Assembly (NCBI RefSeq): GCF_013170825.1
Contig: NZ_CP033365.1
Span: 4,538,001-4,602,000, forward strand
DNA: 64,000 nt
Source of the DNA: Mesorhizobium sp. NZP2298
GTDB lineage: Bacteria > Pseudomonadota > Alphaproteobacteria > Rhizobiales > Rhizobiaceae
Reading direction: 5' to 3'
Shown: positions 24,951 to 64,000 of the stretch, piece by piece
Layout of the letters: the number at the start of each line of letters is the position of its first letter
Position numbering within the stretch: the first letter of the stretch is position 1
Position numbers and translations under genes: made by a program
The notes under the pieces: model-generated
Seen by the model: only the letters and a program-made list of their open reading frames with translations
The model's database searches: none
Told to the model about the DNA's origin: nothing

Positions 24951-27671
24951 ATGTCATCTGCCAACGGTCAAAACTTTCACCTTGATATTCTCAAGGAACG
25001 AAAAAACGAAACGGGGCAAACACGTGCGGCTTCGTTTGATGAGCCAGCAACTGAATTAACATTTCTATTGACCGATATCGAAGGTTCCACAAAACTTGTG
25101 GAATCTTTAGGCAGCCGATATGCAGACCTTTTGAATCGCCACATCGAAATACTTCGAGAAGCTACAGCGGCGGAAGGCGGCTGCGTAATAGATTTTCATG
25201 CAGATTCTTTCTTTGCAATTTTTGATCGAGCTGCAGCCGCTATCGGGGCTGCGGTCAATGCGCAATGCCTCCTTTATGAAGAGCCTTGGCAAAATGGCAT
25301 CCAACTTAGGGTTAGAATGGGGTTGCACACTGGCACAGCAAATTTAAACTTGAACTCCCAAATCGGATATACTGGCTTTGACATTCACCGCACTGCTCGA
25401 ATTTGCGAGGCAGGGCATGGTGGGCAGATACTGCTGTCCGCAGCAACAGTGAAAGGAAACACGGAAAAACTCCCGCCACGCGCACACCTGCGAGAACTGG
25501 GAACGCACTCTCTCAAGGATATCCGTGCACCAGAGGCAATTTGGGAAGTTGTGGTGGATGGGTTGCAAAATCATTTTCCCCCAATTCGATCTCTCGACAA
25601 TCGCCCTAACAACCTGCCGAGTATTCTAACGCCTTTTGTTGGGAGAACGAAAGACAAGGCTATGGTTCGTTCGCTGCTTATCGACAAGAAGGTTCGACTC
25701 TTAACGCTGACTGGCGCGGGAGGAACTGGTAAGACGCGGCTCTCAATCGAGGTTGCGTCAGGCTTGCTTGATGAGTTCCCTGACGGCATATTCTTCGTGC
25801 AACTTTCTACCGTCTCAACCGCTCAATTGGTATTGCCGGAAATTGCCCAGGTTTTGGGAATTTACCAGTTTCCAGGACAATCGGCCTTCGAAACTGTCCG
25901 GCACGCGCTGAATGCACGGCGCGTACTACTCATTCTCGATAACTTCGAGCATGTGCAGCCAGCCGCGTCTATAGCTTTAGATCTTTTAAGGGGCTGTGCG
26001 CAGTTAAAAATCCTCGTAACTAGCCGCGAGTCTCTGGATATTTTTCTCGAACATGAATACCAACTGTCGCCATTGGCGGTGCCCAGCGAGGTTACCGCTA
26101 AAGACTCGTTCGCTTTATTCGACTCCGTCCAATTGTTCGCTGACCTCGTCCGTCGAGTTCGGCCGGACTTTGTCCTCACTACCGAATCTGCAACGACAAT
26201 CGGCGAAATTTGTCGTCGTCTTGACGGATTGCCATTGGCTATTGAGCTAGCTGCCTCGCGCCTCCGGCTCTTGGAGCCCTCAACGTTGTTGAAGCATCTA
26301 AATAACAACTTCAGTGCGCTTGGCTGGGACAGTTGGTCCCTCGGTGATAGGCACAGGACTCTCCGCAACGCCATTCAATGGAGTTACAATCTTCTGGATG
26401 ATATCGAACGCGATCTGTTTCGGAAACTATCAGTATTTTCAAGTCGCTTTAGCTTGGATCAAGCGGTTGAACTTTGCAGTACTGAGATTGGAGGGGAGCG
26501 CGCCGTTGACGTTTTGAATTCGCTATATCGTAAGAGTTTGCTCCAGCGCGACTCTTTTGGCGAGGAACCATATTTTCGCATGTTGGAGACAATCCGGGAG
26601 TACGGATTGGAGCAGTTGCGGGAAACCGGGAGGGAGGTCCACGTACGCGAGCTTCATATGTCACTGATGCTGAGCTTAGCGGAAAGGTGGGCTCCCGATC
26701 TTGTCCGTTCGAAGCGCCAAGAGATCCTGCCTCAGTTACTCGCCTGCTTGGATGACGTTCGCGCGGCGATGGAATTCGGTTTGCAACTAGGGGACACCCC
26801 TACCGTGAGTCGTTTCTTGGAAGCTCTTCTTTGGCTGTGGCTAACGCGAGGCCAGTTTACCGAAGGGGACACTTGGATAGCTCGAGCTTTGGAACTGACT
26901 GAGGGCGGCGACGCCACTATTGCGAACGCGAAAGTTCTCGAGGTTGCAGGCTGGTTACGCCTAATGTCAGGCGACTGGTCCAAGGCACAACCATTCTTTC
27001 AAGCCTCTCGTCGAATTTTTGAACACGTCCAAATGGCGGCTGAATCAACGATGTCGTTAATGACGGAAGGAATAACAAGAGCGTTTGCAACAAATGACGC
27101 CTCGGGCCTGGTGCAAGTAGAGGTTGCGCTGGAGGCTTTTCGGGATCAAAGAAATCTGTATGGAATGGGCCTAACCTTTACGGCGCTTGGTGAAGCAGCC
27201 CGGCTACGGCGTGAGTATGCATCGGCCAAAGTTTTTTTTGATGAAGCGTTGGTATGTATGCGAGCGATCGACAATACATATTGGACTGGTGTTTTGCTCC
27301 AGAACCTCGCACATGTGGTGCTACAGCTGAATGAGTGGAAAGCAGCCGCTACGTTGCTCGTTGAAACACTAGACCTTGCGAACGAATATGAAGATCCCTT
27401 GATGGTGACCTATTACCTGGCTGCCATGGGGCATGTGGCTTTGATACGATCCAGGTACCAAGAAGCTGCCAAATTGTTCGGGGCTACAGAGAGTTCTCTA
27501 AAGACGCTTGGAGTTAAATTCGAACCGGCTGATCAGATGGTATTTGAGAATAATCTGTTCGTTGTTAGATCATTTCTTGAGCCAGCAGTCTTTTCGTTGC
27601 AATTCAGTGAAGGCGCCAAATGGAGTCGGGCGGAAGCCCTCGCAGCGAGTCTCTCTCTCCACGATGAGTGA
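24951..27671 (+). CDS. Adenylate/guanylate cyclase-domain STAND ATPase with TPR-like repeats
   Basis: 906 aa. A class III cyclase domain (residues of about 33-190) has LTFLLTDIEGSTKL and ADSFFAIF with the two metal Asp, and YTGFDIHRTARICEAGHGGQ. A STAND/AAA ATPase follows: P-loop LTGAGGTGKTRL near 255, Walker B RVLLILDNFEHV near 323, and LDGLPLAIELAASRL near 425. Residues of about 600-890 form helical TPR-like repeats. No DNA-binding domain is seen. The gene is distinctly AT-rich compared with its surroundings, a sign of transfer. The family is common in rhizobia; signals are unknown. Confidence 0.9.
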   Translation: MSSANGQNFHLDILKERKNETGQTRAASFDEPATELTFLLTDIEGSTKLVESLGSRYADLLNRHIEILREATAAEGGCVIDFHADSFFAIFDRAAAAIGAAVNAQCLLYEEPWQNGIQLRVRMGLHTGTANLNLNSQIGYTGFDIHRTARICEAGHGGQILLSAATVKGNTEKLPPRAHLRELGTHSLKDIRAPEAIWEVVVDGLQNHFPPIRSLDNRPNNLPSILTPFVGRTKDKAMVRSLLIDKKVRLLTLTGAGGTGKTRLSIEVASGLLDEFPDGIFFVQLSTVSTAQLVLPEIAQVLGIYQFPGQSAFETVRHALNARRVLLILDNFEHVQPAASIALDLLRGCAQLKILVTSRESLDIFLEHEYQLSPLAVPSEVTAKDSFALFDSVQLFADLVRRVRPDFVLTTESATTIGEICRRLDGLPLAIELAASRLRLLEPSTLLKHLNNNFSALGWDSWSLGDRHRTLRNAIQWSYNLLDDIERDLFRKLSVFSSRFSLDQAVELCSTEIGGERAVDVLNSLYRKSLLQRDSFGEEPYFRMLETIREYGLEQLRETGREVHVRELHMSLMLSLAERWAPDLVRSKRQEILPQLLACLDDVRAAMEFGLQLGDTPTVSRFLEALLWLWLTRGQFTEGDTWIARALELTEGGDATIANAKVLEVAGWLRLMSGDWSKAQPFFQASRRIFEHVQMAAESTMSLMTEGITRAFATNDASGLVQVEVALEAFRDQRNLYGMGLTFTALGEAARLRREYASAKVFFDEALVCMRAIDNTYWTGVLLQNLAHVVLQLNEWKAAATLLVETLDLANEYEDPLMVTYYLAAMGHVALIRSRYQEAAKLFGATESSLKTLGVKFEPADQMVFENNLFVVRSFLEPAVFSLQFSEGAKWSRAEALAASLSLHDE

Positions 27672-52816: not shown

Positions 52817-53049
52817 GACCTTCCCTCTACGGAGGGAATCGCAAAAGTTTCAGTTGAGGACCCGCGGGGTCGGTTTGCAGCTTGGGTAGGCGCCTGGGAA
52901 GGTGTTCGATTGCCGGTTGCTGCGGGCGCTTGCGACGAGGAGATGCCGGCATTGTTCGCGATGTCGGCAAACGGCGGACTGCGCTTTTCGCCCTGGGGGG
53001 CAGAAATCCCCTGACGAAAGCGCTATATATAGACAAAAGGACCGGATCA

Positions 53050-56000
53050 ATGCGCATCGAGCGTCGTTTCACCAAGCCAGGCCAATCAGCTTATGCGGAG
53101 ATCGAATTCCGCAAGGCTCTTTCCGAGATCAAGAATCCGGATGGCTCGGTGGTGTTCCGCTTGGACAATATCGATGTGCCGGCGCAGTTCTCGCAGGTTG
53201 CCGCCGACATCCTGGCGCAGAAATATTTCCGCAAGGCCGGCGTCCCCGCGCGCCTGAAGAAGGTCGAGGAGAACGATGTCCCCTCCTTCCTGTGGCGCTC
53301 CGTCGCCGACGAGGCCGAACTTGCCAAGCTGCCGGAAGCCGAGCGCTATGGTTCCGAGATCGACGCCCGCCAGGTCTTCGACCGGCTGGCCGGCACCTGG
53401 ACCTATTGGGGCTGGAAGGGCGGCTACTTCAAGTCGGAGGAAGACGCCCGCGCTTTCCGCGACGAGCTCGCCTATATGCTGGCCACCCAGCGCGTCGCAC
53501 CGAATTCGCCGCAATGGTTCAACACTGGGTTGCACTGGGCCTATGGCATTGACGGTCCGAGCCAGGGCCACTTCTATGTCGACCCCTTCACCGGCAAGCT
53601 GACCAAGTCGAAATCCTCCTACGAGCATCCGCAGCCGCATGCCTGCTTCATCCAGGGCGTGCAGGACGACCTCGTCAACGAGGGCGGCATCATGGATTTG
53701 TGGGTGCGTGAGGCGCGCCTGTTCAAATACGGCTCGGGCACCGGTTCGAACTTCTCGCTGCTGCGCGGCGAAGGCGAAAAACTGTCGGGCGGCGGCCGCT
53801 CGTCCGGCCTGATGAGCTTCCTCAAGATCGGCGACCGCGCCGCCGGCGCCATCAAGTCGGGCGGCACGACGCGCCGTGCGGCGAAAATGGTCATTGTCGA
53901 CGCCGATCACCCCGATATCGAGGAATTCATCGACTGGAAGGTCAATGAAGAGCAGAAGGTCGCCTCGCTGGTGACCGGCTCCAAGATCGTCAAGAAGCAC
54001 CTCGAAGCGATCATGAAGGCCTGCGTCAATTGCGAAGGCAATGGCGAGGACTGCTTCGATCCGGCCATCAACACGGCGCTGAAGCGCGAGATCAAGGCAG
54101 CCAAGAAGTCGGCCGTGCCGGAGAACTACATCTACCGCGTCATCCAGTTCGCCAAGCAGGGCTACACGTCGATGTCGTTCAAGACCTACGACACCGACTG
54201 GGATTCGGATGCCTACCTGACGGTCTCGGGCCAGAACTCCAACAATTCGGTGTCGTTGAAGGACAATTTCCTGCGCGCCGTCGAGGACGATGCCGACTGG
54301 CACCTGACCGCCCGCAAGGACGGCAAGGTACTGAAGACGCTGAAGGCCAGGGATCTATGGGAAAAGATCGGCTACGCCGCCTGGGCGTCGGCCGATCCGG
54401 GCCTGCATTTCAACACGACGATGAACGACTGGCATACCTGCGCTTCGGCCGGCGCGATCCGGGCCTCCAACCCGTGCTCGGAATACATGTTCCTCGACGA
54501 CACGGCCTGCAACCTCGCCTCGATCAATCTGCTGCCCTACCGCAACGCCGACGGCACGATTGACATCGCCGCCTACGAGCACACGGTGCGGCTGTGGACC
54601 ATCGTTCTCGAAATCTCGGTGATGATGGCACAGTTCCCGTCGAAGGAGATCGCCAAGCTCTCCTACGACTACCGCACGCTCGGCCTCGGCTACGCCAACA
54701 TTGGCGGCCTGCTGATGACCTCGGGCATTCCCTATGATTCCGACGAGGGCCGCGCCATCTGCGCCGCGCTCACCGCCATCATGACCGGCGTCGCCTACGC
54801 CACCTCGGCCGAGATGGCCTCCGAGCTCGGCGCGTTTCCCGACTATGACCGCAACGCCCAGAACATGCTGCGCGTCATGCGCAACCATCGCCGCGCCGCC
54901 TATGGCGACAAGGACGGCTATGAGAAGCTGGCCGTCAATCCGGTGCCGCTGGTCGCTTCCGACCTCAAGCAGCAGGCGCTCGCAGAGCATGCGAAAGCCG
55001 CCTGGGACCGCGCCATCGAGCTTGGCGAGGAGCATGGCTATCGCAATGCGCAGGCAACCGTCATCGCGCCGACCGGCACGATCGGCCTGGTCATGGATTG
55101 CGACACCACCGGCATCGAGCCCGACTTCGCGCTGGTGAAGTTCAAGAAGCTCGCCGGCGGCGGCTACTTCAAGATCATCAACCGCGCCGTGCCGGAAGCG
55201 CTGCGCACGCTCGGCTACTCCGAAGCCCAGATCGGCGAGATGGAGGCCTATGCGGTCGGCCACGGCAATCTCAACCAGGCGCCGGCCATCAACCCCGGCT
55301 CGCTGAAGGCAAAAGGTTTCACCGATGAGAAGATCGAGGCACTCAACGCAGCGTTGAAGTCGGCCTTCGACATCAAGTTCGTCTTCAATCAGTGGACGCT
55401 TGGCGCCGACTGGGTGAAGGAGACGTTTGGTTTCACCGACGAGCAGCTCAACGACTTCTCTTTCGAGATGCTGCCGGCGCTGGGCTTCTCCAGGAAGGAC
55501 ATCGAGGCCGCCAACATCCATGTCTGCGGTGCGATGACGCTGGAAGGCGCACCCTTCCTCAAGGCCGAACACCTCGCCGTGTTCGACTGCGCCAGCCCGT
55601 GCGGCAAGATCGGCAAGCGCTCGCTGTCGATCAACAGCCACATCCAGATGATGGCGGCGGCGCAGCCCTTCATCTCGGGCGCCATCTCCAAGACCATCAA
55701 CATGCCCAACGACGCGACGGTGGAGGACGCCAAGGGCGCCTACATGCTGTCGTGGAAGCTGGCGCTGAAGGCCAACGCGCTCTACCGCGACGGCTCGAAG
55801 CTGTCGCAGCCGCTCAACTCATCGCTGCTCGCCGATGGCGAGGACGATGAGGACGAAGCCCTCGAACAGCTGATCCAGGCTCCGGCGGCAGCGCGCGCGA
55901 CGCAGATCACCGAGCGGATCGTCGAGCGCATCATCGAACGCGTGTCGCGCGAGCAGGAAAAGCTGCCCGGCCGCCGCAAGGGCTATACGCAGAAGGCCAA

Positions 56001-56838
56001 GATCGGTGGCAACACCATCTTCCTGCGCACCGGCGAGTATGATGATGGCCGCCTCGGCGAGATCTTCATCGACATGAACAAGGAAGGCGCGACACTGCGT
56101 GGCCTTCTCAACAACTTCGCCATCGCGATTTCGCTCGGCCTGCAATACGGCGTGCCGCTCGACGAATATGTGCACGCCTTCACCTTCACCAAGTTCGAGC
56201 CGGCTGGCATGGTCATCGGCAACGATGCCATCAAGAGCGCGACGTCGATCCTCGACTACGTGTTCCGCGAACTGGCCATCTCCTATCTCGGCCGCAACGA
56301 CCTTGCCCATGTCGACCAGTCGGACTTCTCCAACACCGCGCTCGGCCGGGGCATCAGCGAAGGCAAGACCGACGCCGTCTCCAAGGGCCTGACCCGTGGT
56401 TCGCCGGTGAAGCTGGTGTCGAGGGCAATCGGCAGCGAGCCGAAGGGCTTTGCCGGCGGCTCGACCGGAACCCCTGCCCGCTCGGCGCCGACCGCCTTCT
56501 CCGGCTCCAACGTGCTGGCGTTGAAGCCAGCCAGCGACGAGGCGGTCGCCTACAAGCGCGACTATGAGGATCGGGCCAAGGAACTGGCGGAGGACATCGC
56601 CTTCGAGGAAGCGGCGGGCGCTGCTTCCGAGACTTCGGATGCCACGGCGGTGCTGTTCACCGACGCCGCGGCCAACGAGGCCGCCGAAGCCAAGAAACTC
56701 GCCGCCGACCGCCGCGCCAGGTCACTGCTGCAAGGCTACACCGGCAATTCCTGCTCCGAGTGCCAGAATTTTACGATGGTGCGGAACGGGACCTGTGAGA
56801 AGTGCGATACTTGCGGCGCAACGAGCGGGTGCAGCTGA
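53050..56838 (+). CDS. nrdJ: Adenosylcobalamin-dependent (class II) ribonucleoside-diphosphate reductase
   Basis: 1262 aa from ATG at 53050. Class II RNR converts ribonucleotides to deoxyribonucleotides with B12, and needs no small subunit. Core elements: [40 protein letters not shown], active-site region [20 protein letters not shown] (catalytic Cys, Asn and Glu) and [20 protein letters not shown]. The C-terminal tail [29 protein letters not shown] carries redox or zinc-binding cysteine pairs. The length is typical for rhizobial NrdJ. An NrdR box controls it. Confidence 0.97.
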
Positions 56839-57315
56839 GAAATCTGAAACGCTAAAACTAGATCGGCCCCGAAACTTTGTCCCTGAGCGTGTTAAACGCA
56901 AATTTCGCCCTGCTAGGTGAGTCCCTCCTGACCTGACGCGCCACCGCATCTTGCTCAACGTCAAGATAGATGGCTCGCCCGACACTCGAAATTGACTCAC
57001 CCTAGGAAAAAGAAGGCCCGGACGCTTTAGCGTCCGGGCCTTCGACTATTTGTGCCAATGCGAGGATACGAACCTCTCGAACGACGCGGGATGATCTCGG
57101 CTCAAAGGTCCGCTAAGCGCCAGGAGTGGTCATCTCAGCCCGCGCTAGGGAATGACCGGATTGGGGCCGATTGCGGACCATCAGCTTCTGGAGAGTGAGT
57201 CCGCGAAAACAGACTTGCTCAATACGTTAAAGCCACACCCTTGCGGTGCGAATCTCCCCCGGCAAATGGCTGGATATGATTCTGCGCCCTATAGCGGCGA
57301 TCAGGGAGGCTGTTC
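56839..57315. other. Region between nrdJ and accessory DNA, with a minus-strand terminator
   Basis: 477 bases without a supported ORF. A strong terminator for the minus strand is at 57012-57043, and a tRNA-T-arm-like sequence (GAGGTTCGTATCCTC on the minus strand) lies around 57068-57082. It looks like the left boundary of the accessory segment. Confidence 0.5.
57012..57043 (-). terminator. Strong intrinsic terminator (minus strand)
   Basis: Fourteen-base-pair perfect stem GAAGGCCCGGACGC / GCGTCCGGGCCTTC with a four-base loop. On the minus strand it is followed by TTTTTCC, so it ends leftward transcripts, probably from the 57316-58593 gene or from an RNA gene near 57060-57150. Confidence 0.85.
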
Positions 57316-58593
57316 TTAGCCTTGGCTACGGCGCGCTTTTGCGGCCGTGGCCCATAGATTGGTGAGAAAGTCTGGCATGACGATCCAATCACCTCCTTCT
57401 TCACTGCGGATCAAGGCATTGTTATCGCCGTTGGCATACATCAGCCGCATGCGTTGTGAGCCATTCCAGTTCTCTCCCAACAATGTTCCCGACATGTTGA
57501 CCATGACATTGGTCATGGCTGGGGCTGTGTCTTCAACTCCAGTCAGCTCCCAATCGACTATGATTATATCCTTCAGTTCATCCCGCAGCCGCCCTGCTCG
57601 ATAACCGATAGTCCGCTTGGGATAGTCGATGGTCGACTGTGCCAGCGCCCCGAAGTTCCGTTTAACGAGGCATTCTATATAAACTACCGCTGCCTTCTCA
57701 GGTGAGCCCTCTTCCAGGGTGCCAGCTGACATCGATGAGGTGATAATCGTATTAGCTATTGTGGGCCGTGCTTCCCACGCATCGAGTCGCTTCTTGGTGT
57801 CAGCATTCTTTAGGAGGCTGTGACCAAGCTCCTTCCAATCGACCGGCCTTTGCTCTTCGGCGGCCTTGGCGAGACGCTGAGCTTCGTCCCGTCTCCGATC
57901 GAAGTAGTCGACCATCGCTTGCAGTAGGTTGAACGCTTTTGCAGCGACGAGTGAATGGCCAAAATTGGGATTGAGGCCGTGAACAATTCCGTGGCGGAAA
58001 GGCAGTGTGATTGAGCTGCTATCCAACTTTCGGCGCGTCGAGCCGAAAAGGGCCAAGCCTTCTGACAGCCCGCCTGGGCCAGACGTTTGCGAGTCGAAGA
58101 CCGGCGCGTCAGCTCCACCGGAGAATGGGTGCTTGGCGGTCATCGTCGTGCAGATGCCGTCGATAACAATGAGGATCAACGGAATAGCGGACAGGTAATC
58201 CTCCACAGCGGTCCGTTCGACCGCGCGCTCATAGAGTTCGCCCCAACTTGCATAGTGAGACGTGTGAAAGCGGTATCCGAGGAAGCGAAGATTGTCCGGA
58301 TCAAGGTGGTAAGCGGTGAGAATAGCCTCGCCCTCATCAACTTCCGCTGCAAGCGCTTTGGCCACCGCATCGACGGACATCCGATCGTAGTTCACCCAAC
58401 CAAGAGGGCTGTAAATTTCGGCGAACCGATCCCTGTTGGCAAGCATCACCTTTACGCTCTCAACCTGTGCGTCAAGGTCCTGGAATTGCTTCCGCATATC
58501 CGGATTGAAGAATCCAATCAGCTTTGCAAGAGGCTTCAGCGCTTCGAACTGTTGAAGGGTGAAATCGCCGGGCGGTTTTGGCTTATCCGTCAC
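57316..58593 (-). CDS. Unknown protein with HEPN-like RX4H motif
   Basis: 425 aa. No family is recognised with certainty. Residues 195-225 read TLPFRHGIVHGLNPNFGHSL, then VAAKAFNLLQAMVDYF. This puts an RX4H motif (R200, H205) at the start of a helix, as in HEPN ribonucleases and Apea-type HEPN proteins (R-x-x-I-x-H-G). A long helical region surrounds it. The C-terminal third (residues 300-400) looks like a separate alpha/beta NTF2-like domain (VVYIECLVKRNFGALAQSTI). Set in an accessory region, it could be a toxin or defence effector. Confidence 0.65.
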   Translation of the reverse strand: MTDKPKPPGDFTLQQFEALKPLAKLIGFFNPDMRKQFQDLDAQVESVKVMLANRDRFAEIYSPLGWVNYDRMSVDAVAKALAAEVDEGEAILTAYHLDPDNLRFLGYRFHTSHYASWGELYERAVERTAVEDYLSAIPLILIVIDGICTTMTAKHPFSGGADAPVFDSQTSGPGGLSEGLALFGSTRRKLDSSSITLPFRHGIVHGLNPNFGHSLVAAKAFNLLQAMVDYFDRRRDEAQRLAKAAEEQRPVDWKELGHSLLKNADTKKRLDAWEARPTIANTIITSSMSAGTLEEGSPEKAAVVYIECLVKRNFGALAQSTIDYPKRTIGYRAGRLRDELKDIIIVDWELTGVEDTAPAMTNVMVNMSGTLLGENWNGSQRMRLMYANGDNNALIRSEEGGDWIVMPDFLTNLWATAAKARRSQG

Positions 58594-59141
58594 GAGTAGT
58601 TTCCCGCTTTTCTATAAGCCCCGGCGTCGCGTGAGGAAAAGACAGCAATGATGCTCCAAATTTTCGCCATGTAATGTCATCCTATCCGACTGTAGCCTAG
58701 GCGCGCCTTCAACGGTCGCCGACTCAGGCCTATGTTCGGCCCCATACGCGACGTAATGGCCAGCATTCGGACATGTCACAGGCAATGTCCGCTTTTGGCG
58801 GTCGGCCAACGTAGCTCTGACGACCGACATGCGGCGCGTTGCTGCTCGGCAGCTTGGGTGCCCAAAAGCAGACAGGCAGCTATTGTATATAGATGTTCAA
58901 TAAGCGGACTCCGAAGGGTTGCCAAGTTGCCGTTGTCGATGGGGCATCTCCTCACGGCAGTCTTTGCGCGACTTTGAAGCACAGAGAGGGAACATTGAGC
59001 TGGCGCCCCTCAATGGGATGGCCGGCGCCGCAGCGTAAAATTATCCAAACCGCTAACAAATCGGGCGCACCCGGCGAGACATATTGCTGCCGTATCCCGG
59101 CAATGCGATATCGGTCGCGATTGAATTGAGACCCTTTCGCT
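58594..59141. other. Accessory intergenic region
   Basis: 548 bases. Short frames have no coding style. A segment with CATTCGGACATGTCACAGGC and AATGTCCGCTTTTGGCGG (58763-58802) resembles common intergenic text in rhizobial accessory DNA; a similar GTCCGCTTTC occurs near 60668. No terminator or tRNA was seen. Confidence 0.45.
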
Positions 59142-60416
59142 ATGCAATTGACGCGCCTTGAGCTTTATAAACGGGTCTGCGACAGGCCGCTCAGTAAAGT
59201 CGCCCCGGAGCTCGGAATATCCGGCACAGCGCTCGCCTCCATCTGCAAACGGTATCAGATCCCCTATCCCGGATCCGGCTACTGGACCCGCAGATCCCTT
59301 GGGCTTGCGGCAGAGCTGCCATCACTACCGGAGGCATCGAATGAAACCATCGAGATCACCGCGTCGATCCCGAAGCCACGGCAGAAGAGAACGCCGGAAG
59401 AAATTGCGGCACGTAAGACCAAGCGCCTAGCGAGACCTGATCGTCCGGTACATCATCCGCTGTTGTTTGGTGTCGAAGAGCATTTGCGGAAAACACGGGA
59501 CGTGAAAGAGGGCGAATTCCTCAGGCCCTATAAGAGGATTCTGCCGGACTTGATTTCATCGGAAACCGCGCTGCTTCGCGCACTCTCGATCGCCAATGAC
59601 CTCTACCTCGCGCTGCACAAACAAGGATACCGGGTTCACATCGCTCAGGCCGCCGATGATCTTCATCGCATCCACGTCAAGGAACAGGAAGTGGAGCGAA
59701 AGGATCGCAAATACGGACGCTACCACTCCGGAAGCATCTGGGCGCCCGACCGGCCGACCGTCTTCTACGTTGACACGGTGCCAATAGGGCTCGCTCTCAC
59801 CGAGATGACGGAAAGAGTGACGATGCGATACCTCAACGGTGATTATCATCGTGAGGACAGCAGACTCATACGGTCAGCCAAGCCTTGGCAACTCACGCAC
59901 TCCTGGACAACAGAGCAGGATATGCCCTGCGGACGTTTTCGGGTGATTGCTTATTCCCCAAAAAAGGGCGTCGACTGGTCCGTCAGTTGGCAGGAGACCG
60001 AGCAGGAGGCGCTTGGCACGCTGATCCCAAAAATCGTCGAGACCTCAAAAGCGGCTAGGGACAATGTGCAACGCCTTATGGACGCCGAGGATGTGGCCGA
60101 GGCGAAAAGGAAAAAGGAGCGAGAGGAATGGTGGGCGCGCTACGAACGACAGGAGGATGCCCGCAAGACAGCGCAAGCTCTTGCTGATAGCCGTCAGCAA
60201 CTTGCGGAAATTATCGAGAGGTGGGGGAGAGCGATGACGGTAGAGCGCTTTTTCGCCGATGCGGAAGAGCGGTTGAAGAGCGCAAACGAAGAGCGTCGGC
60301 AACGGCTGGAGGAACGTCTGACGCTCGCGAGGGCAATGATGGAAAGCATAGATCCGCTGGATTTCATAGAAAGCTGGGTAGCCCCGGAGGAGAGGCACCG
60401 TTCAAAGTTCATCTAG
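59142..60416 (+). CDS. Unknown protein with N-terminal HTH and C-terminal coiled coil
   Basis: 424 aa. The first 50 residues are a helix-turn-helix type: LTRLELYKRVCDRPLSKVAP, ELGISGTALASICKRYQIPY, then PGSGYWTRR. This N-terminal module (LY..V...P...LA...G.S...L...CR...IP.P..GYW) is found in many proteins of genomic islands with no assigned function. A middle alpha/beta part (100-280) follows, then a long charged coiled coil (residues of about 310-405, KRKKEREEWWARYERQEDAR). It may bind DNA. Confidence 0.7.
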   Translation: MQLTRLELYKRVCDRPLSKVAPELGISGTALASICKRYQIPYPGSGYWTRRSLGLAAELPSLPEASNETIEITASIPKPRQKRTPEEIAARKTKRLARPDRPVHHPLLFGVEEHLRKTRDVKEGEFLRPYKRILPDLISSETALLRALSIANDLYLALHKQGYRVHIAQAADDLHRIHVKEQEVERKDRKYGRYHSGSIWAPDRPTVFYVDTVPIGLALTEMTERVTMRYLNGDYHREDSRLIRSAKPWQLTHSWTTEQDMPCGRFRVIAYSPKKGVDWSVSWQETEQEALGTLIPKIVETSKAARDNVQRLMDAEDVAEAKRKKEREEWWARYERQEDARKTAQALADSRQQLAEIIERWGRAMTVERFFADAEERLKSANEERRQRLEERLTLARAMMESIDPLDFIESWVAPEERHRSKFI

Positions 60417-60895
60417 ACAGTTTGGGTTGCAGGCATTGTGGGCGCGCACCAGAGAACAAAGGATGAAGAGCACCGGCGAAATCAGCATTGCGCCCGCTGC
60501 ATGGCATAGGTGGTCAAAACGATTTTATCTTGTGCGCCGGCGGCATTTATCCGAACTCACCGCTCAGGTCGTGCCGCAGTCAAAGGTGTATAGGCTTACA
60601 TAAGCAATCGTAGCGCGCCCTTGGCGGGTTCGGAATATTCGACGCAGCAACGGCGCCGTTAGCGGACTGTCCGCTTTCAGGTGCAATGAGCTGAGTTGCC
60701 GCCATATAGAACCGCCAGCAGAGCTCTTCCAGCCCGGGGCCTAGAAAGTTTTAGCGTCGGCAATTTGTGTACATCTGTGATGCCCTCTACTAAGCATTTT
60801 CGCATCAGCTATTACAGCTCAATCGCGCACGAGCATTCCGAACTAAAGCGTAAGCAGTCCTGGCATGCTCATCCAACGAAATTTCTTGCGCCTAA
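60417..60895. other. Intergenic region between convergent accessory genes
   Basis: 479 bases with lower GC. It shows no ORF with coding character, no tRNA and no clear hairpin with a T-run. GCGGACTGTCCGC (60662-60674) is a small palindrome. Confidence 0.45.
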
Positions 60896-63607
60896 TCATT
60901 GGCTGCCGGAGCGCACACCGTTAAGCTTTTGTTCCAACCGCGAGCGCTCGTTCTCCTTCTGACTCGCCGCCAATGCAGCTTCGAGATCGTCAACTGCTCC
61001 TTCCTCGTTGAGAGCCTGACGGATATCAAACCGCAACTCAAGAAACTCGCTGCGAAAGCGCTCCGCCTTAAGTTTAATAAGAGCTTTTTCGATCCATTCT
61101 TTGGCCTCCCCGGCATCGCCTTGGGCAAGTCGTGATCGGGCCATCAGACGCTCCAGCCATTCGGTGTCCAGAGAAGTAAGTTTCCTAAGAATGCCTTCTG
61201 CCGTTTCCGGCCGACCCATGTCGATTAGGAGCTCTGCATGCCGCTGATGGTGAAACGACATCGGCTTAACGATCGCCAGATAGTGGCAACGTGCCTTTTC
61301 CCGAAGTTCACCGGCCATTTCCGGTGAAAGCCGAGCCGCTTCACAATAGATCTCCGCCCGCGCGGCTCGCTCTCGGTCGGTTTGTAATCTTTCGAGCTCG
61401 ACCTCCGGCAAGCCCTTGAAAATTGCTCGAAACATATCCGGCCGCTCGACTGAGATGTACCGACCCAGAGCAGCGAACGCGTCGAATGCGTGCTGCGCTC
61501 CGGCGTTGGCCGCAGAGATAATGGTGCGTTCGATCGCGGCAGCGTGGCGATCGATGAGGCCTGAGCGCCACTGGCCGGACCCTGATGGAAGACGCTCGAT
61601 CACGCCGAGCAGAACCGAATAGGTCAAACCTTTGGAGTCGGCGCTCGGCCCAAGCATTTCGTCCACTAGCTGGGTCGCTCTCGCCTCTTTTTCAGAGTGT
61701 CCCTTGTACAGGTCTACGAGCTGAAGCCTCGCCTCATGCAGCGGCAACGGGCCTTTTAGCACCTCTTCAAAAAGCTCGGCCGCAGCTGGCAGATCACCTA
61801 TGCGTTTTAGTGCCTTGCCTTTGTGGTGCAGAAGTTCTGCGGTTTCTCTTGGCGTGAGCTCCGGTAAGCCTAGCATTTCATCGAACGCGACAAGACGTTC
61901 CCGCAGCCGGTCCTGGGCAGCTGGATCTTGTTGTTCCTTGTCGAACAGAAAGAGCTGCTCAATGGATTCGATCACCATGTTGACTTCAAGTGGTTCAGGC
62001 TTCCGCCCGGTCATCCGTTTGACGGCATCCAATGGATTGCCGACAAGCTCTGGCTTAGTCTCCAAGGCGTCCCAGGTGGTCAACAGGGCAAAAAGGAAGC
62101 TGGGCGGGGTGTCGCCTTTTGCCACCATGGCTTCGAGTTTCGGCAACAAAATGCGAGCATTGCGCCACAGATCAAGGCCTTCTCCACGTGACGCTTCAAC
62201 GAGATAGGTGTCCAAGAGACGATCGAGTTCAGCACTCCGCTCTGGCGTGCACCAGCTCTCGTCGAGGGCAGCATCTACAACGTCATGCAATCTGATGGCT
62301 CTATTCCGATCTGGAGCGGTCAGGCTATTAGTTTTCAGCTTGCGAATGCCGAGTGGTTTGATGGCAAAACTTAAGAAATCCTCATCGCAAACTGGCAAAC
62401 CCGACCACGCAAAAACTGACAGCTCGCGAGAAAGCGAAGCCCGCAGACGCTCCAGTAAAATATCGGTAAGGCGACGACCGCCGGTCTCCATTTCGCCAAT
62501 GGCCTGGCAGTCATCTAGGATGTCATCCCAGGTCGCCCCCTGATTGACGGCGGCGAGGATTAGCGAAAGGCTGAGCGGATGCCCTTTGACAGTTGCCCAG
62601 ATTGTTTCGAACACCTCCTCAGGGCATGGGGAGCCGGCCTGTCCTAATAGAGCTTGAGACTGCGGACGATCCAGCATTGGTAGGCTGTACGAGTGGGCCG
62701 CCGTCGACCGTTGGGTTAGAAGAATGTGAGAGCCATCTCCGCAGATTTTTTTTAGTGAAGCTATGTCCAAATCATCCGACGCATCATCGATAACGAGCAG
62801 GCATGGCAGCGTCTGCATCAGACCGACGATGTTCCGGCTTTCACCGGCACGAAGGAGTGGGAGCGCTTGCAGATCCTGCACGCGGCGTACCTCTTCGCCA
62901 TCCAGCCAGATCCGAAGGTGATACTCAGCCTGATGAAGATGAGCGAAGGCCTGTGCTGTTGCCGTTTTTCCTAGTCCCCCAACGCCGCTGATCGCAAGGA
63001 CTGGACTCTTATTTAATCGTGCAACGATCTCCTCATCGATGTCAGTTCTCTGTAGCCAGCCCTCTACTGGTTCGGGCACAATCCTACTTGCTGCCTCCTC
63101 CTCTCGAATGCGCTCCAGATCTGGCAGATAGGGGGCAAGTTTTCGAACAACCGCATCGCTGATAATTAGGTGATCGACCAGTTGGGTCGCGATCTCCACA
63201 GCACCCCACAGGTGAAGCGTTCTACCTCGCATCTCTGGCATGGCGAGAACCTCGCGCTCAAATTCCTGCGCGATCTGTGGCCGGCTCATCTGCCCAGACA
63301 AAAGGAAGACCTGTTCCGCTGTGGGCGCTCCCGCCAACGCGTGAGCAAGGTCGTCACGCGCCTTGCCCATGTCTCCACTGAAATATTTCTTCTGATCGGA
63401 ATACTCGACGACGATCTTGCCGTCGCCACTGGTCGTATCCACAACACCAGCAACCGGGTAACCGAGAAGGTTTATCCCCCGATGATCCAGAGGCAGATCC
63501 AAAATTGCTTGAATGAACTGGCCACCAAATTTTTCGAAGTCGGTGGCGATATAGCCAATACCATTTGCCAGACGCCCAATCAGAGCAGTGCGCCGCTTCG
63601 GATTCAT
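60896..63607 (-). CDS. STAND (NB-ARC) NTPase with N-terminal nuclease-like domain, Avs/NLR-like
   Basis: 903 aa from ATG at 63607 (MNPKRRTALIGRL); numbering below counts from an in-frame ATG at 63619. Residues of about 20-165 form an alpha/beta domain with conserved PVAGVVDTTSGDGKIVVEYS, then DQKKYFSGDMGKA: D61, E72 and K77/K78 suit a PD-(D/E)xK-like nuclease, though the ExK spacing is not exact. Residues 205-450 are a STAND ATPase: Walker A SGVGGLGKTATAQAF, Walker B CLLVIDDASDD, sensor HILLTQRS and GHPLSLSLILAAV. The C-terminal 400 residues are helical repeats. Effector-STAND-sensor order equals Avs antiphage proteins. Confidence 0.8.
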   Translation of the reverse strand: MNPKRRTALIGRLANGIGYIATDFEKFGGQFIQAILDLPLDHRGINLLGYPVAGVVDTTSGDGKIVVEYSDQKKYFSGDMGKARDDLAHALAGAPTAEQVFLLSGQMSRPQIAQEFEREVLAMPEMRGRTLHLWGAVEIATQLVDHLIISDAVVRKLAPYLPDLERIREEEAASRIVPEPVEGWLQRTDIDEEIVARLNKSPVLAISGVGGLGKTATAQAFAHLHQAEYHLRIWLDGEEVRRVQDLQALPLLRAGESRNIVGLMQTLPCLLVIDDASDDLDIASLKKICGDGSHILLTQRSTAAHSYSLPMLDRPQSQALLGQAGSPCPEEVFETIWATVKGHPLSLSLILAAVNQGATWDDILDDCQAIGEMETGGRRLTDILLERLRASLSRELSVFAWSGLPVCDEDFLSFAIKPLGIRKLKTNSLTAPDRNRAIRLHDVVDAALDESWCTPERSAELDRLLDTYLVEASRGEGLDLWRNARILLPKLEAMVAKGDTPPSFLFALLTTWDALETKPELVGNPLDAVKRMTGRKPEPLEVNMVIESIEQLFLFDKEQQDPAAQDRLRERLVAFDEMLGLPELTPRETAELLHHKGKALKRIGDLPAAAELFEEVLKGPLPLHEARLQLVDLYKGHSEKEARATQLVDEMLGPSADSKGLTYSVLLGVIERLPSGSGQWRSGLIDRHAAAIERTIISAANAGAQHAFDAFAALGRYISVERPDMFRAIFKGLPEVELERLQTDRERAARAEIYCEAARLSPEMAGELREKARCHYLAIVKPMSFHHQRHAELLIDMGRPETAEGILRKLTSLDTEWLERLMARSRLAQGDAGEAKEWIEKALIKLKAERFRSEFLELRFDIRQALNEEGAVDDLEAALAASQKENERSRLEQKLNGVRSGSQ

Positions 63608-63822
63608 GTATGCCCCCAAATAAAATCCAGAAAATCATCCCCTGGACATCAATATCTGCAGAATATCGACATGCTGCAAGATCGCCGCGGTCGTGATGGT
63701 AGGAAAGCCCTTTCCGTCCAAGCCGCGAAAAGGAGGATGTCGCTCTGCGTCGCCGTTGACTTCAATTACGAAGGTGATTGGAAGAGCGCGCCAAAGAAGT
63801 CCCGAGGATGAACGCTCGTTAG

Positions 63823-64000
63823 CTAAACGGTCGGTGCATCGGACTTAACCGTTTTACGAATTATGCGCTCGAACAGGTCGGAGCGGGCTAACGTGGGCGG
63901 TCCTTTTGCAAGAAGTGGCTTAATCGCATCCCACTGCTTGGTCCCTTGGAATGAGATTTCACGCCCCTGCCTGTGATCGGGACGACTGAAATGGGGCCGG
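63823..64000 (-). CDS. C-terminal fragment of an unknown protein
   Basis: A frame open to the right edge of the window, ending TAG at 63823-63825 on the minus strand. The last residues include GREISFQGTKQWDAIKPLLA, KGPPTLARSDLFERIIRKTV. It lies upstream of the STAND gene in the same direction, with a 215-base gap, so it could belong to the same locus. No family is recognised from 58 residues. Confidence 0.4.
   Translation of the reverse strand, partial: RPHFSRPDHRQGREISFQGTKQWDAIKPLLAKGPPTLARSDLFERIIRKTVKSDAPTV

Follow-up and report, generated by a model that had tools for sequence, protein, structure and literature searches.

A candidate NLR-like defence protein with a nuclease-fold effector domain in an accessory island of Mesorhizobium sp. 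NZP2298

Within a stretch of 64,000 nucleotides from Mesorhizobium sp. NZP2298 (contig NZ_CP033365.1, positions 4,538,001 to 4,602,000; hereafter the window), a minus-strand gene encodes a protein of 903 amino acids (aa) in which a nuclease-fold domain, an NB-ARC/STAND switch and a helical, TPR-type array follow one another. We consider it likely that this is a single-gene NLR-like (STAND) defence protein whose PD-(D/E)xK domains cut DNA on activation, and its role is probably to protect the cell from viruses or from invading DNA of other kinds. The protein stands as an NLR-like receptor equipped with an effector of predicted nuclease fold; its gene lies at the edge of a defence island, and its family carries no name in the libraries searched. 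The sequence-only reading made earlier had proposed an antiphage-type STAND protein with a nuclease-like domain; the anatomy, predicted fold, conservation, patchy distribution and defence-island context support that proposal, with an antiphage role as the presumed function.

The open reading frame (ORF) extends over 60896-63619 from a TTG start and over 60896-63607 from an ATG start. The latter, i.e. the ORF as originally reported (903 codons plus stop), is backed by the relatives, of which 14 among 24 aligned rows (own row counted) begin with MNPKR. A first homologue search at E<=1e-3 recovered 49 proteins in all, the window protein among them, and the ORF is therefore far from a chance product; identity falls from 80% in Agrobacterium, Rhizobium and Mesorhizobium to 38%. 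The protein is divided as follows:

60896..63607, minus strand: nuclease-fold / NB-ARC / TPR (STAND) protein, 903 aa (ORF, homologue search, alignment)
63128..63607, minus strand: predicted N-terminal PD-(D/E)xK-fold effector domain, residues 1-160 (structure models, fold comparison)
62042..63094, minus strand: NB-ARC/STAND switch, residues 172-522
62963..62986, minus strand: Walker A GVGGLGKT, residues 208-215 (G208, G211, G213 and K214 invariant in 24 rows)
62780..62800, minus strand: Walker B LLVIDDA, residues 270-276 (motif present in the alignment)
62276..62296, minus strand: MHD-like motif IRLHDVV, residues 438-444 (H441 and D442 invariant in 24 rows)
60899..62041, minus strand: C-terminal helical/TPR array, residues 523-903, the presumed sensor

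The switch combines Walker A and B motifs, with invariant positions, and a multi-subdomain NB-ARC fold that includes an MHD-like motif. All three motifs listed at the outset (SGVGGLGKT, LLVIDDASD and LLTQRS) were recovered, LLTQR lying at residues 296-300, and GHPLSL (342-347) and the MHD-like LHD (440-442) can be added to them. The window protein itself scores 18.2 bits against Pfam NB-ARC (curated cut-off 23.5), and 21 of 24 family members match that model at E<=0.1 (best 2.9e-7). The helical repeats, put at about 400 residues by the sequence-only reading, span some 380 C-terminal residues in the predicted model. A hypervariable sensor was not seen, the mean pairwise identity over 24 rows being 0.525 for residues 641-903 versus 0.540 for residues 1-160.

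A putative nuclease site is suggested by the following positions of the N-terminal domain, where conservation was counted in 169 collected proteins (own included), 168 of which cover the segment:

63533..63535, minus strand: E25, possible motif I glutamate (E in all 164 proteins with a residue there)
63437..63439, minus strand: D57, motif II aspartate adjoining a core strand (D in 168/168)
63398..63406, minus strand: E68-Y69-S70, motif III, E-x-S replacing E-x-K (E in 164/168, S in 165/168)
63350..63364, minus strand: K82 to D86, motif IV helix (K in 168/168, D in 168/168)

The segment DTTSGDGKIVVEYS, in which D, E and K positions had been pointed out, is indeed present, with Q at the E68 position in the remaining four proteins. 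Only 14 of the 160 domain columns are conserved in at least 97% of all rows, and K82 is the sole lysine or arginine among these 14. The predicted model consists of helices (residues 3-36) and short strands, followed by strands 58-60 and 65-70, a helix (81-93) and a further strand (99-104). Restriction enzymes head the list in a fold comparison (VIA), and Foldseek support for the PD-(D/E)xK fold is weak. Sequence searches yielded nothing convincing, be it in Pfam with the domain of 18 members (seven families at E<=1; best match I-HmuI NUMOD-like, E 0.0099, in one member; RPN13_C in four members) or among PDB chains (three matches, E 0.78-1.6). Of the proposed PD-(D/E)xK-type assignment, the predicted fold, the motif II aspartate and the motif III glutamate stand, whereas the lysine of ExK is missing; the absence of a textbook ExK had been anticipated, and EYS occupies motif III. 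A plain ExK nuclease is ruled out by that missing lysine. According to PMC1913061, a lysine in motif IV can substitute for a lost motif III lysine in PD-(D/E)xK families. Since the serine in motif III and K82 in the next helix correspond to this variant, the claim concerns a migrated-lysine form, which the site looks like from its conserved residues, and not a classical member. The same source describes DUF506, DUF790 and DUF1626 as having lost the motif III lysine while a basic residue is conserved in their motif IV helix; unlike these, the window domain is fused to a STAND switch and has no Pfam sequence match.

These parts suggest the following course of action. At rest the NB-ARC switch would be closed and nucleotide-bound. 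Binding of a molecular sign of invasion, probably a protein of the invader, by the C-terminal TPR array would allow nucleotide exchange and oligomerisation, by which the N-terminal PD-(D/E)xK domains would be gathered. The gathered domains would then cut DNA (less likely RNA) and thereby stop the invader or the cell. The putative nuclease site would comprise E25, D57, E68 and K82, the lysine having shifted from strand 3, where S70 now stands, to the following helix.

The distribution of the gene is patchy. Counting the window genome, two of the 146 genomes of the genus carry it, and in the second of these the open frame reaches just 411 aa. In samples of the family, class and phylum, where up to eight candidates were scored per genome and tallies are lower bounds, it was found in at least 4/394, 3/385 and 3/397 genomes, respectively (own included); two of the three other family copies are short frames (476 and 359 aa), and the class sample contains one weak match with stops and one fragment. 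In a sample from the class of genome G300 (369 genomes, up to two candidates scored per genome, so that members may have been missed) 35 genomes gave matches at E<=1e-3. None was judged a family member, because no listed match covers more than about 180 of the 933 positions and all of them fall within the NTPase or TPR part. Shortened relatives also appear in stretches L028 (11598-12812, a 404 aa frame), L041 (10004-10786, 260 aa) and L066 (9421-10443, 340 aa), and Sinorhizobium plasmids carry partial matches (hits H10-H20 and H22) with pieces within residues 411-747; judged by such frames, the gene seems to decay often.

A mixed-alignment search extended the family to 309 proteins at E<=1e-3, of which 120 were listed, and by the listed names members occur in many Pseudomonadota as well as in Sulfurovum and Marinifilum. 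Residues 1-178 of one relative gave 130 matches; among the best 120 of these all except three (859, 766 and 664 aa) measure 907-990 aa, so that, within the length range admitted by this search, the domain keeps a single architecture. A quick tree of 43 proteins groups them into clade A (with the window protein), the adjoining clade C and clade B, to which the Bacteroidota genus Marinifilum belongs. Support is 1.00 for the A+C node and for clade C; that of the clade B node is only 0.29 after midpoint rooting, and the root of clade B is therefore not relied on. No viral relatives turned up in two viral contig scans (pattern-based, of limited reach), no phage record matched the clade B relative P0149 (used as query instead of the window protein), and a DNA-level comparison gave no match for the Enterobacter relative in E. 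coli. Among the titles and abstract starts listed by searches of one open literature library, none names the family; systems with PD-(D/E)XK and TPR parts are validated in PMC13092281 and may overlap the present family.

The genomic context is that of a defence island:

56839..64000, strand not assigned: window part of an accessory island of about 40 kb, which runs on to about position 4634625 of the genome (G000), some 32.6 kb past the right end of the window
59142..60416, plus strand: island neighbour, 424 aa, with a sub-cut-off RWP-RK/HTH-like match at its N-terminus
57316..58593, minus strand: island neighbour, 425 aa, without family match

The left flank is formed by a gene at 52882-56838 (presumably nrdJ) that was found in 10 of 10 genomes tested. 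In a comparison with four relatives, listing matches over 200 bases, the shared sequence resumes in three (G033, G009 and G029) at 1.3-2.1 kb past this gene with what stands about 39.8-40.0 kb past it in the window genome; the fourth (G021, stretch L035) gave no shared block. To the right of the window, a metallophosphoesterase and a GHKL ATPase lie beside the gene, followed by a partial PDC-M54A/LmuA-match protein, an AAA-M41 peptidase, two unmatched proteins, Vsr and a cytosine methylase, and further along by MzaB/C/D-type proteins, a KwaB-like protein, GmrSD, a Schlafen AlbA_2 protein, one more unmatched protein, TniB and TniQ. Of ten proteins tested from this right side, PADLOC matches nine at E<=1e-5 and the tenth, the GHKL ATPase, at 7e-5 only; the two window neighbours do not match, which makes 9/12 overall, compared with 0/10 for a control of hand-picked window ORFs outside the island. 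The earlier description of the gene as standing in accessory DNA next to other unknown proteins agrees with this context. No fixed operon partner was seen for the window copy, Rfam gave no element at gathering score within 56500-64000, and stretches L021 and L022 contain no tRNAs. The metallophosphoesterase and GHKL ATPase ORFs (L021 10059-13912), which overlap by 4 bases and adjoin the STAND gene, might be a separate defence pair. Elsewhere in the window, a lower-GC stretch encodes another STAND protein, which differs in kind from the first (24951-27671, plus strand; 906 aa with guanylate cyclase-like, NB-ARC and TPR regions).

The proposed check whether homologues cluster in defence islands gave a positive answer. 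Of 20 neighbour proteins, selected from 11 relatives' loci for their size and closeness to the gene, PADLOC matched 14 at E<=1e-5, spread over 8 of the 11 loci; six have no match, and L004, L008 and L028 yielded none. The matches include GajA/GajB (L005, L016) and a GajB-like protein (L001), HerA (L002, L003, L007) with SIR2 also in L007, LmuB and Ppl (L015), Mokosh MkoA/B (L016) and a weak PDC-S73 (L009). L002, L003 and L007 have the HerA gene and an upstream set in common and are therefore counted as one event. In these three Bradyrhizobium loci and in L008, a common gene of 166-215 aa lies directly upstream of the STAND gene, overlapping it by 4 bases in L007 and L008; Pfam gave no match for the copy in L007. 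In Sphingomonas dokdonensis a HEPN/RES-domain ORF (L004 12693-14108) begins inside the 3' end of the clade A STAND ORF.

Rather than phages, the main target might be mobile DNA such as plasmids, conjugative elements and transposons, or the gene might serve competition between such elements. Of 22 records of homologues on plasmids 19 are typed conjugative, and TniB/TniQ-type genes occur in the island (L038 347-3285, close to its right end; perhaps remnants of the element that delivered it). Nevertheless, the neighbours are mostly systems catalogued as antiphage and defence genes ride such elements anyway; we regard this explanation, which overlaps with that of a defence protein, as unlikely though by no means far-fetched.

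Relatives of clades B and C occur in settings of their own:

L026 1226-12289 and L027 1667-12730: hsd-embedded nuclease-STAND loci
L017 7885-12703, L018 7782-12706, L019 7909-12724 and L065 7071-11880: clade C three-gene cassette

In L026 and L027 (clade B, Magnetococcales by their listed names) the STAND gene is flanked by HsdM and HsdS, DarT comes after HsdS, overlaps of 4 bases occur, and HsdR lies close by; near the remaining clade B locus examined (Enterobacter, L020) no hsd genes are annotated. All four clade C loci examined, from Sphingomonas, Burkholderia and Pseudomonas plasmids and one Rhizobiaceae genome, consist of a divergent radical SAM gene, a thymidylate kinase gene and the STAND gene; a second B. 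glumae record (H6) also has tmk in its table row, and the radical SAM protein of L019 shows a sub-cut-off B12-binding match. The pairing recalls that of viperin and CMPK2. The window copy has neither arrangement.

PrrC, found in type I restriction operons, is a guard. Similarly, the protein could watch restriction enzymes or nucleotide pools and fire once an invader disables them, an idea that shares ground with direct defence. It would fit the position of the relatives within hsd operons (two of three clade B loci) and beside thymidylate kinase and radical SAM genes (four of four clade C loci), but the loci are few, L020 departs from the pattern and the window copy has no such partner; we consider it rather improbable. 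More tentatively than the assignment as a defence protein, it is possible that an uncatalogued cross-phylum family of NLR-like proteins of about 900-940 aa with a migrated-lysine nuclease acts solo in some hosts and in fixed multi-gene modules (HsdM-HsdS-DarT; radical SAM and thymidylate kinase) in others, with the TPR sensor of such modules keeping watch over the partner enzymes or the nucleotides that these produce.

Less probable still is a pseudo-enzyme, in which the PD-(D/E)xK fold would bind nucleic acid or protein without nuclease activity and the protein would signal via a partner or hold DNA: D57, K82 and D86 are invariant and E68 nearly so across very divergent clades, and K82 stands where the described replacement lysine is found, in motif IV. 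An ordinary STAND regulator of metabolism or development (MalT or AfsR type) is very improbable, given that no DNA-binding domain was recognised and a nuclease fold stands in its place, in a gene of rare occurrence and island context.

As a defence protein, the window protein resembles several known systems in part. Avs1-4 sensors bind phage terminase or portal, and the title of a PDB entry names Avs4 bound to phage portal. The Avs-like layout suggested earlier stands as far as the effector-switch-sensor anatomy goes. However, no Avs model matches: Avs4 (AVAST type 4) measures about 1540 aa versus 903, Avs4 models reach E 0.04-0.08 over about 40-48 residues only (PADLOC Avs4 E 0.077 over 48 residues; NCBIfam Avs4 11.2 bits versus a cut-off of 1500), and the window NTPase is closest to NB-ARC/Apaf-1. 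An Avs-like mode of action is possible, but the protein is not classed with the Avs systems. Avs5 shares the STAND and C-terminal TPR-type repeats (Foldseek match to structure 9nc9, E 5e-5), but its effector is Sir2-like instead of nuclease-fold (PMC12931631). The CARD-NLR protein LypB, which with the bNACHT proteins counts among the closest known systems, likewise has an NLR-like ATPase followed by TPR-like repeats (PMC13236601); the window effector, in contrast, is fused in the same chain, and neither a gasdermin nor a trypsin-like protease turned up in the neighbouring genes inspected. The best NCBIfam match, the FxSxx-COOH system TPR protein (NF040586, E 1.2e-10 over residues 186-350), concerns the NTPase alone and scores 40.5 bits versus a cut-off of 300. 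TgvAB, a defence gene embedded in a type I restriction (hsd) operon (PMC11411939), is a precedent for L026 and L027, but is GmrSD-like instead of STAND, and the window gene is not hsd-embedded.

If the proposed function is correct, bacterial immunity would gain a nuclease receptor of the NB-ARC (Apaf-1/plant-NLR-like) type, whose divergent site escapes motif searches for ExK. The presence of members in many Pseudomonadota, Sulfurovum and Marinifilum makes trigger and cutting testable in many hosts, and with the hsd- and tmk-linked relatives one could also test whether bacterial NLRs act as guards. Should the modular arrangement hold, the sensing of pathogens and the guarding of partners would share a single receptor chassis.
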